Below, in pieces: positions 21,387 through 37,457 of a stretch of 64,000 nucleotides of DNA. The position numbers and the translations under genes are program-made. Origin of the DNA: Sphingomonas sp. (GTDB taxonomy: Bacteria; Pseudomonadota; Alphaproteobacteria; Sphingomonadales; Sphingomonadaceae); NCBI GenBank assembly GCA_019753375.1, contig JAIELC010000024.1, positions 1 through 64,000 of the forward strand, in the 5' to 3' direction. Under the pieces are notes generated by a model. It was given only the letters and a program-made list of their open reading frames with translations, was not told where the DNA came from and ran no database searches. Position 1 is the first letter of the stretch. Every line of letters begins with the position of its first letter.

Positions 21387-21410
21387 GTTCCACTCTTGTT
21401 CCAATAGAAC
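21387..21410 (+). promoter_or_regulatory. LexA (SOS) box upstream of recA: GTTC-CACTCTT-GTTC, overlapping GTTC-CAATA-GAAC
   Basis: Exact match to the alphaproteobacterial SOS box GTTC-N7-GTTC, about 80 bp upstream of the recA ATG. Confidence 0.85.
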
Positions 21411-35318: not shown

Positions 35319-36143
35319 ATGATTGACGACCATCGGCCCAGGTTTCGGCGCCGGCAATTACCACGCAGTCCACGCGGGTTGCCGCTTCGCGCCGTCGCCC
35401 CCAATGCTGTCACCGCGTTGGCGCTGTGTTCGGGCCTGACCGGTATTCGCTTTGCGATTTCCAATGACTGGCAATTGGCTGCGGCGATGATTGTGCTCGC
35501 CGGGGTGCTCGATGGCCTCGATGGACGAATCGCGCGGATGGTACGGGGGGAAAGCCGCTTTGGCGCAGAGCTTGATTCGCTCAGTGATGCGATATCCTTT
35601 GGCGTTTCGCCGGCACTGATCCTGTATTTGTGGTCGCTCAATTCGTTGCCGAGGCTTGGCTGGATTTGTGCGCTGATGTTTGCCGTATTCTGTGCGCTGC
35701 GCCTTGCCCGGTTCAATGCTGCCATCGATCTGGCCGAACAACCGCACAAAATGGCGGGCTTTTTAACGGGCGTACCGTCACCCGCGGGCGCAGGTCTGGC
35801 CATGCTGCCAATGTATCTGTGGTTTTTGACCGACGAGCCCATGTTCCGATCGAGCTGGCTGGTCGCGCCCTGGGTTGCCCTGATCGCGGTGCTGATGGTG
35901 TCGAGCATCGCCAGCTTTTCCTGGGCTTCGCTAAAATTGCGTCACTCTGTGCGGTTCGAAGCGCTGGCGGTGCTGGTTGTCATGGGCGCCGCCTTTGCCT
36001 CGGCGCCCTGGCACACGCTTAGCTTTGTCTGCGTCGCGTACCTGATCTCGCTACCGTTCAGCATGCGCAATTATGCGCGGATCAAGCGGCTACGCGCAGC
36101 GCCGACGGTGCCACCGACAGCCGAGCAGCGCGAACCGTCATAA
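35319..36143 (+). CDS. pssA: CDP-diacylglycerol--serine O-phosphatidyltransferase
   Basis: CDP-alcohol phosphatidyltransferase motif LDGLDGRIARMVRGESRFGAELDSLSDAISFG; follows psd. Confidence 0.93.
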   Translation: MIDDHRPRFRRRQLPRSPRGLPLRAVAPNAVTALALCSGLTGIRFAISNDWQLAAAMIVLAGVLDGLDGRIARMVRGESRFGAELDSLSDAISFGVSPALILYLWSLNSLPRLGWICALMFAVFCALRLARFNAAIDLAEQPHKMAGFLTGVPSPAGAGLAMLPMYLWFLTDEPMFRSSWLVAPWVALIAVLMVSSIASFSWASLKLRHSVRFEALAVLVVMGAAFASAPWHTLSFVCVAYLISLPFSMRNYARIKRLRAAPTVPPTAEQREPS

Positions 36144-36348
36144 CCTGGCGCCGCGCCGGCAGTTTTGCCGGGATCGCGGCCGCGACATCGCCCGCCAACA
36201 AAGCGCCGATGCGCGGCAGGGCGGGGACCAAAGTCATCCAGAACACGGCGCCAATTGCCATCATTGCCACTGCGAACACACCGAGACCCATCATTGCCAT
36301 CATCACCAGGCTTCCCTTGACAGTTGCAAAACCGAACAGAGGCCGCAT
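36082..36348 (-). CDS. Small membrane protein, putatively LexA/SOS-regulated
   Basis: ORF with a strong hydrophobic stretch LVMMAMMGLGVFAVAMMAIGAVFWMTLV. The track start (36387) falls inside a likely -10 region, so ATG 36348 is preferred. Tandem LexA boxes directly upstream. Confidence 0.55.
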   Translation of the reverse strand: MRPLFGFATVKGSLVMMAMMGLGVFAVAMMAIGAVFWMTLVPALPRIGALLAGDVAAAIPAKLPARRQVMTVRAARLSVAPSALRVAA

Positions 36349-36389
36349 TTGCGGCGATCGGTTCCACGTTCCTTCAATGAACGTCATAT

Positions 36390-36434
36390 GTTCCTTTCAT
36401 GTTCCGCCTGTCAAGTGATGTTCTTGCGATGTTC
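36390..36434 (-). promoter_or_regulatory. Two tandem LexA boxes: GTTC-CTTTCAT-GTTC (36390-36404) and GTTC-TTGCGAT-GTTC (36420-36434)
   Basis: Both match GTTC-N7-GTTC exactly. On the minus strand a TTGACA (-35-like) lies between them, with the proximal box over the -35/-10 spacer. Confidence 0.7.
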
Positions 36435-36614
36435 CCATTTCGAACCAGCGTTGGATGCCGCATAGCGAAGGCACCATTACAGGCCGCTTGATTTCGACGG
36501 CGCGCTCGACTAAGTGCGCGCTCCTCAATCCCACATGGGAAGCGCTCATCACCGGTGTCCGGGCTTGTTTTCGGATATTTGCTTCCCAGCGGCTGAACCG
36601 GAAAGGAACTAATT

Positions 36615-37457
36615 ATGGCGGCTCCTGTCGTCACCATGCAGCAATTGATCGAAACCGGCGCCCATTTCGGACACCAGACTCACCGCTGGAATCCGAAGAT
36701 GAAGCCTTACATCTTTGGCGACCGCAACGGCGTTCATATCCTTGATCTGTCACAGACCGTGCCGCTGTTTGCCCGCGCGCTCGAATTCGTTTCGGCGACG
36801 ACCGCGGCTGGCGGGAAGGTTTTGTTCGTCGGTACCAAGCGCCAGGCGCAGGAACCGGTGGCTGAAGCCGCACGCCGCGCCGGACAGCATTTCGTCAACC
36901 ATCGCTGGCTGGGCGGCATGCTCACCAACTGGAAGACGATTTCCGGGTCGATCAAGCGGCTCAAGACGCTTGAAGAGCAGCTGTCGGGGGACACCACCGG
37001 CCTGACCAAGAAGGAAGTCCTTCAGCTGACCCGTGAAAAGGACAAGCTTGAGCTGTCGCTTGGCGGCATCCGCGATATGGGCGGCATTCCTGACGTAATG
37101 TTCGTCATCGACGCCAACAAGGAAGAGCTGGCGATCAAGGAAGCCAACACGCTGGGTATTCCGGTTGTCGCGATCCTCGATTCCAACGTTTCGCCGGATG
37201 GCATTGCCTTTCCGGTGCCCGCCAATGACGACGCCAGCCGGGCGATCCGCCTGTACTGCGAGGCAATCGCGATTGCCGCGACCCGCGGCGGCCAGGATCG
37301 TCAGGCAAGCTTTGGTGCCGATCTGGGCGCGATGGCCGAACCGATCGCGGAAGTAGCGCTGGAAGACGTGGCCGCTCCGGCGATTGAGCCCGAGCAGATT
37401 GCCGCCGCAACCGACGTTGAGACCGCGTTCGAAGGCGAGCAGCAGCTCGACGCCTGA
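36615..37457 (+). CDS. rpsB: 30S ribosomal protein S2
   Basis: [41 protein letters not shown]. Confidence 0.98.

Follow-up and report, generated by a model that had tools for sequence, protein, structure and literature searches.

Locus organization of a small gene between pssA and rpsB

The window analyzed here, that is, the whole 64,000-nucleotide stretch of Sphingomonas sp. contig JAIELC010000024.1 (source assembly, 2.6 Mb and 88% complete), carries on its minus strand a small gene for a predicted 73-aa membrane protein (36082–36303). Its convergent neighbor on the plus strand is an ORF (35319–36143) with homologues by protein search, which we take to be pssA, encoding CDP-diacylglycerol-serine O-phosphatidyltransferase; the name was recognized from the sequence and has no profile search behind it. 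The two genes overlap at their 3′ ends by 62 bp (36082–36143, both strands). The divergent neighbor is rpsB, encoding ribosomal protein S2 (36615–37457, plus strand), homologues of which were found in 98 of 98 family genomes.

An earlier note on this DNA had claimed two exact GTTC-N7-GTTC boxes upstream of a hydrophobic minus-strand ORF, with TTGACA between them and an ACATAT/CATATG element 17–18 bp downstream. Both boxes match exactly, and the promoter elements are present at the claimed positions. In minus-strand order, the second box (36434–36420; GAACATCGCAAGAAC, or GTTCTTGCGATGTTC on the plus strand) lies immediately upstream of the −35 element TTGACA (36414–36409), and the promoter-proximal box (36404–36390; GAACATGAAAGGAAC, or GTTCCTTTCATGTTC on the plus strand) lies within the spacer that separates it from the −10 element CATATG (36390–36385). 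The spacer is 18 nt long; the ACATAT reading would give 17. A strict sigma-70 scan did not pick up this window promoter because its −10 element is weak. Downstream, a Shine-Dalgarno-like AAGGGA (36313–36318) precedes the ATG at 36303, with GTG 36306 as an alternative start, and the stop codon occupies 36084–36082. On the other side, the box array ends 181 bp from the rpsB start.

GTTC-N7-GTTC as the LexA operator of this genome

The bare GTTC-N7-GTTC pattern occurs five times in the window compared with 1.78 expected, and genome-wide it occurs 65 times compared with 62 for a reversed control, which is no enrichment. Because the bare pattern is this common, the sequence of one genome cannot decide whether a given box matters, and significance has to come from comparison with relatives. 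The genome encodes its own LexA (PF01726 match), and a box begins 35 bp before the matched domain. Further, exact boxes of the form GTTC-N5-AT-GTTC, which both window boxes share, lie 23 bp ahead of uvrA and likewise 23 bp ahead of a Y-family polymerase gene, 21 bp ahead of an mmcB-like repair gene, and 107 bp ahead of rmuC. GTTCN7GTTC is also the published LexA motif of Caulobacter (PMC12700426). Judged from its placement before lexA and known SOS genes, GTTC-N7-GTTC is the LexA operator in this genome, as the note had assumed. On sequence alone, the locus has the features expected in an alphaproteobacterial LexA regulon: its operator overlaps the promoter and is conserved in relatives, and the genome has lexA as well as this motif ahead of known SOS genes.

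Conservation of the gene and its operator across Sphingomonadaceae

A direct search with the 101-aa ORF described in the note found no relative because its first 28 codons are probably non-coding and the family diverges fast. Relatives were located by synteny, using rpsB as the anchor. In the 30 genomes of the genus, the layout reading divergently from rpsB begins with TTGAC, followed after a few nucleotides by GAAC-N7-GAAC and ATA; next come a leader and a ribosome-binding site, and then the small hydrophobic ORF. Beside rpsB, the divergent strand had an exact box in 29/30 genus loci and 71/90 family loci (box and ORF together in 70/90), compared with an expectation of 1.2% per locus in Markov-shuffled sequence. 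In other alphaproteobacterial families, only 3 of 85 loci had a box on either strand within 1 kb. The promoter is conserved with the box: TTGAC is retained family-wide, GAAC-ATA stands at the position of the −10 element in relatives, and the proximal box keeps its place with respect to TTGAC in 86 of the 96 distinct promoters of the family. Two or more boxes were seen in 23 of the 120 examined loci.

The family ORFs, called by hydrophobicity and ribosome-site rules, so that a few individual calls may be wrong, are 52–111 aa long with a single transmembrane segment and occur throughout Sphingomonadaceae; AGGAGG-like sites precede their start codons. When named genomes were scanned with the protein profile, 80 loci were retained, almost all of them labeled Sphingomonas, with S. 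paucimobilis and S. melonis included. In each of the 79 evaluable loci, rpsB is divergent and a box precedes the matched stretch by no more than ∼200 nt; because these relatives were chosen by protein alone, the box played no part in their selection. The search for orthologues with conserved upstream boxes, proposed in the note as a check, was thus passed decisively, and the idea of a LexA-blocked promoter reading into the minus-strand ORF is supported. Operator conservation is near certain; LexA binding and damage induction at this promoter are inferred. Nearly all sphingomonads apparently carry the small gene with its predicted LexA switch, and the best reading of the genomes compared is that it is sphingomonad-specific, the other alphaproteobacterial families having been sampled without finding it.

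Some records deserve separate mention. Two loci titled Microvirga sp. SRT01 (L308) and Arthrobacter sp. TPD3018 (L315) have a Sphingomonas-type gene beside rpsB and are probably mislabeled sphingomonads. An AT-rich 2.1-Mb family member (G025, locus L152) has two boxes and a divergent transmembrane ORF that ends in NLA, not AA. In the S. faeni/aurantiaca group (L039–L059), box and ORF are separated by a long, conserved leader in which GAACAGATGTTC forms an inverted GAAC repeat.

The small gene is linked to pssA

We examined 17 family pssA loci, comprising those of family genomes without a box beside rpsB plus some unchecked there. A box lay beside pssA in 14 of them, most of which have none near rpsB, 113–332 nt past the pssA stop, and nearly all 14 had a small hydrophobic ORF between the pssA stop and the box. 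In other families, none of 10 pssA loci had a box beside pssA. The 3′ end of the small gene overlaps an opposite-strand ORF in 95/98 loci, and this ORF is pssA wherever its motif was recognized. By gene order, then, the small gene is tied to pssA and not to rpsB. The note had left room for the box array to affect rpsB also or instead. This is now disfavored: the promoter points away from rpsB, and because the box stays beside pssA in genomes without one near rpsB, a role in rpsB expression is unlikely.

Upstream of rpsB itself, at ∼36500–36550, every genus locus shows strong conservation of a block (CTTCCCATGYGGG..TTAGC, minus strand). It has no Rfam match and may represent either an S2 leader or the promoter region of rpsB.

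Coding status and predicted topology

The minus-strand hydrophobic ORF was confirmed to be open. Its start had been placed at ATG 36387, which we reject because this codon lies inside the −10 element, upstream of any transcription start from the promoter; in alignment, relatives begin at the position of ATG 36303 (or GTG 36306). Transcription would be expected to begin some 7–8 nt past the −10 element, near 36377–36379. Among 22 distinct close homologues, pN/pS was 0.18 in frame (0.21 in the helix and 0.18 in the tail), compared with 1.6 and 2.6 in the shifted frames of the same homologues. On this comparison, it is near certain that the ORF is protein-coding and under purifying selection. The window protein matches the family profile at E = 3.6e-19 (it is itself among the profile sequences) and is 61% identical to the homologue from genome G138 over 36 aa.

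The predicted 73-aa protein (MMAMMGLGVFAVAMMAIGAVFWMTLVPALPRIGALLAGDVAAAIPAKLPARRQVMTVRAARLSVAPSALRVAA) was modeled by AlphaFold2 as one confident helix spanning residues 2–36 (pLDDT >90) followed by a low-confidence tail, with a mean pLDDT of 79.6 for the whole model. Hydropathy and the model place the transmembrane segment at about residues 1–26 (36226–36303, minus strand). The N-terminal flank is positive in no family member, and the Arg-rich tail has a mean charge of +6.8. Because of this asymmetry, we infer from the positive-inside rule that the C terminus is cytoplasmic; the predicted topology is N-out/C-in with a disordered cytoplasmic tail. One clade shares the tail motif AERRIAVRRWA. 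No convincing relative of the protein was found in Pfam, NCBIfam, PHROGs, or the PDB, and Rfam gave no match at the small-gene locus. An Rz-like spanin, matched by a single family member at 7e-4, was considered and found unconvincing.

A conserved Ala-Ala end and antisense codon choice in pssA

The small protein ends in Ala-Ala (36085–36090, minus strand), as do 87 of 95 distinct family proteins, compared with 25 of 477 long ORFs (a 5% background). The ssrA tag, which ClpXP reads, has LAA as its terminal signal. In Caulobacter, ClpXP recognizes SsrA-tagged proteins (PMC5422525). This conservation need not by itself signal a degron, because the end of the small protein faces conserved pssA codons and -AA could be a by-product of the overlap: the stop of the small gene lies opposite the conserved pssA motif Y-x-x-V/I-K/R-R. 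The codon choice in this motif was therefore compared with that elsewhere in pssA. Where the basic pair of the motif opens with Arg, the codon is AGG in 54/54 cases, whereas in the body of pssA only 18 of 384 Arg codons are AGG. A TGA or TAA arises on the opposite strand when AGG (or, for Lys, AAG) follows a codon whose last base is C or T. The next motif Arg is encoded by CGG in 82 of 87 cases, compared with a background of 35%, and this choice retains Ala at position −2 of the small protein. The associated probabilities ignore relatedness and should be taken as large, not literal. Sample selection cannot explain the bias, because the ORF was called in 98/100 box-bearing loci. From these patterns, pssA codon choice appears to be constrained so as to keep the small gene's stop and Ala intact, which is independent evidence, from the opposite strand, that the small ORF encodes a protein.

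Members whose -AA end does not face the pssA motif include ...FRLAA (L364, no overlap), ...ELALAA (L112), ...MRLAA (L080), ...PLPLAA (L370), and ...IRLAA (L372). Together with the pssA codon bias, they support selection on the small protein. The -AA end nevertheless remains partly confounded by the antisense overlap, and we regard it as a candidate ClpXP-type degron, degradation being inferred. A cytoplasmic degron would fit an SOS effector that has to be removed after repair. The codon pattern in pssA also illustrates cleanly how, in an antisense overlap, the end of one gene can be protected through the codons chosen in the other.

Proposed function and alternative explanations

Several phyla have small SOS membrane proteins that block late division, with examples in Caulobacter, Bacillus, Mycobacterium, and Staphylococcus, several of which act via FtsW (PMC4211646, PMC13396833), and no PF03846 (SulA) match was found in this genome (assembly 88% complete). 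Because of this precedent and the missing SulA, an inhibitor resembling Caulobacter SidA is the best single reading. We consider it somewhat probable that the gene encodes a LexA-repressed, rapidly degraded, single-pass inner-membrane division inhibitor of Sphingomonadaceae. The gene, its coding status, the conservation of box and promoter, the single predicted helix, and the -AA end were computed; LexA binding, induction, topology, degradation, division arrest, and its target are inferred. LexA would occupy the promoter and the region just upstream, keeping the gene repressed until DNA damage leads to LexA cleavage and the promoter fires. The small protein would then block late division in the membrane via the septal synthase complex FtsW/FtsI/FtsN, in the manner of SidA. 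Its -AA end would allow clearance by a cytoplasmic ClpXP-type protease, and division would resume as LexA re-accumulates. Against this reading, no homology to a known inhibitor was detected by database search, there are no induction, binding, or phenotype data, the predicted cytoplasmic tail is unlike the extracellular C-terminal domain of YneA, and the fixed placement opposite pssA might point to a role connected with phospholipid synthesis. That the gene stands for a family-wide, hitherto unnamed class of SOS checkpoint proteins whose 3′ end is genetically interlocked with pssA and whose cytoplasmic-side degron times release, possibly coupling damage to both septation and phospholipid synthesis, is a more speculative proposition, which we think rather unlikely.

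An SOS-induced membrane-active peptide of the TisB/DinQ type would lower membrane potential and cause dormancy with no specific divisome target. LexA control, one hydrophobic helix, and a strongly basic tail would all suit such a peptide, and DinQ is a toxic single-TM peptide under SOS control (PMC3567139). However, the family proteins exceed TisB and DinQ in length, the tail is constrained at the protein level and carries the AERRIAVRRWA motif in one clade, and no known regulatory RNA in Rfam was matched at the locus, so that we hold this explanation to be unlikely. Much the same doubt attaches to some other function for an SOS-induced membrane protein, for instance as a membrane tether linked to repair or as a modulator of envelope stress. 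Homology does not fix the function and so leaves room for it, but known small single-TM SOS proteins mostly target division or membrane potential (PMC13396833, PMC3567139).

In another reading, pssA is the target: the SOS transcript, through convergent antisense transcription, or the protein, through binding to PssA in the membrane, would lower phosphatidylethanolamine synthesis during damage. The retention of gene and box with pssA where none was found beside rpsB and the near-constant 3′ overlap speak for such an action, but two genes can be locked together by overlap alone, the non-overlapping members L112 and L364 indicate that overlap is not needed, and the protein-frame constraint extends outside it; we give this possibility little weight. 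A further alternative is that the boxes serve rpsB or match by chance next to a spurious ORF. The lack of genome-wide enrichment and the 181 bp between the boxes and the rpsB start would agree with it. It is hard to reconcile with the antisense codon bias in pssA and with the gene and box found away from rpsB, and the chance reading is already contradicted by these findings together with the conservation across relatives and the frame-specific constraint. We regard it as very improbable.

Comparison with known systems

Caulobacter SidA is, like the protein described here, a small single-TM inner-membrane protein of an alphaproteobacterium that is SOS-induced and LexA-controlled via GTTCN7GTTC (PMC4211646, PMC12700426), induction being inferred for the sphingomonad gene. 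It differs in length, having 29 aa (PMC4211646) compared with 73 aa here (52–111 aa in the family) and the long basic tail; the small single-TM character of SidA is thus met and its length of ∼29 aa is not. Binding to FtsW, a property of SidA, has not been shown for the sphingomonad protein. DidA of Caulobacter, with 71 aa and one TM helix, is similar in build, but is DriD-induced and SOS-independent (PMC4211646), whereas the sphingomonad gene has LexA boxes. Bacillus YneA, Mycobacterium ChiZ, and Staphylococcus SosA are likewise small SOS-induced membrane division inhibitors, and YneA is removed by proteolysis (PMC13396833, PMC6851548). YneA, however, has an extracellular C-terminal LysM domain and is the substrate of membrane proteases, whereas the sphingomonad tail is predicted to be cytoplasmic, with its degron-like end facing the cytoplasm; the LysM domain of YneA and ChiZ had no Pfam match in the sphingomonad protein. 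E. coli SulA is an SOS-induced, proteolytically cleared division inhibitor that is soluble and acts on FtsZ, in contrast to the predicted membrane-spanning protein here. TisB and DinQ share LexA control and a single TM segment, but are shorter and have partner antisense RNAs (DinQ: PMC3567139), none of which was seen here (Rfam only). Because the protein exceeds SidA in length and departs from DidA, YneA, and SulA each in a feature that was checked, we assign it to none of these four.

No description of the small gene was found in open-access full text (subscription journals were not covered), and how sphingomonads stop division after DNA damage is apparently undescribed in the open-access literature. 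In anaerobic RNA-seq of Sphingopyxis granuli, SOS genes go up (PMC6472365). The analysis provides one testable gene per genome across most of the ∼90 genera examined, S. paucimobilis and S. melonis among the species covered, with start codon, operator, and degron candidate defined. The gene would be a further, independent example of tiny membrane proteins in SOS control, one whose predicted topology and turnover signal are unlike the known ones.

Additional LexA-like boxes

The window contains a further exact box at 21387–21401 (GTTCCACTCTTGTTC) and another at 36595–36609 on the minus strand; the latter overlaps the rpsB ribosome-binding site, is at most rare in relatives, and is probably a chance match. 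Elsewhere in the genome, LexA-like boxes precede a FAD-linked oxidase-like gene (G000:C3:79591-79605, L204) and a gene for a 210-aa protein resembling a LexA/S24-type regulator (G000:C105:906-920, L213), both of which are possible further SOS members of this genome.
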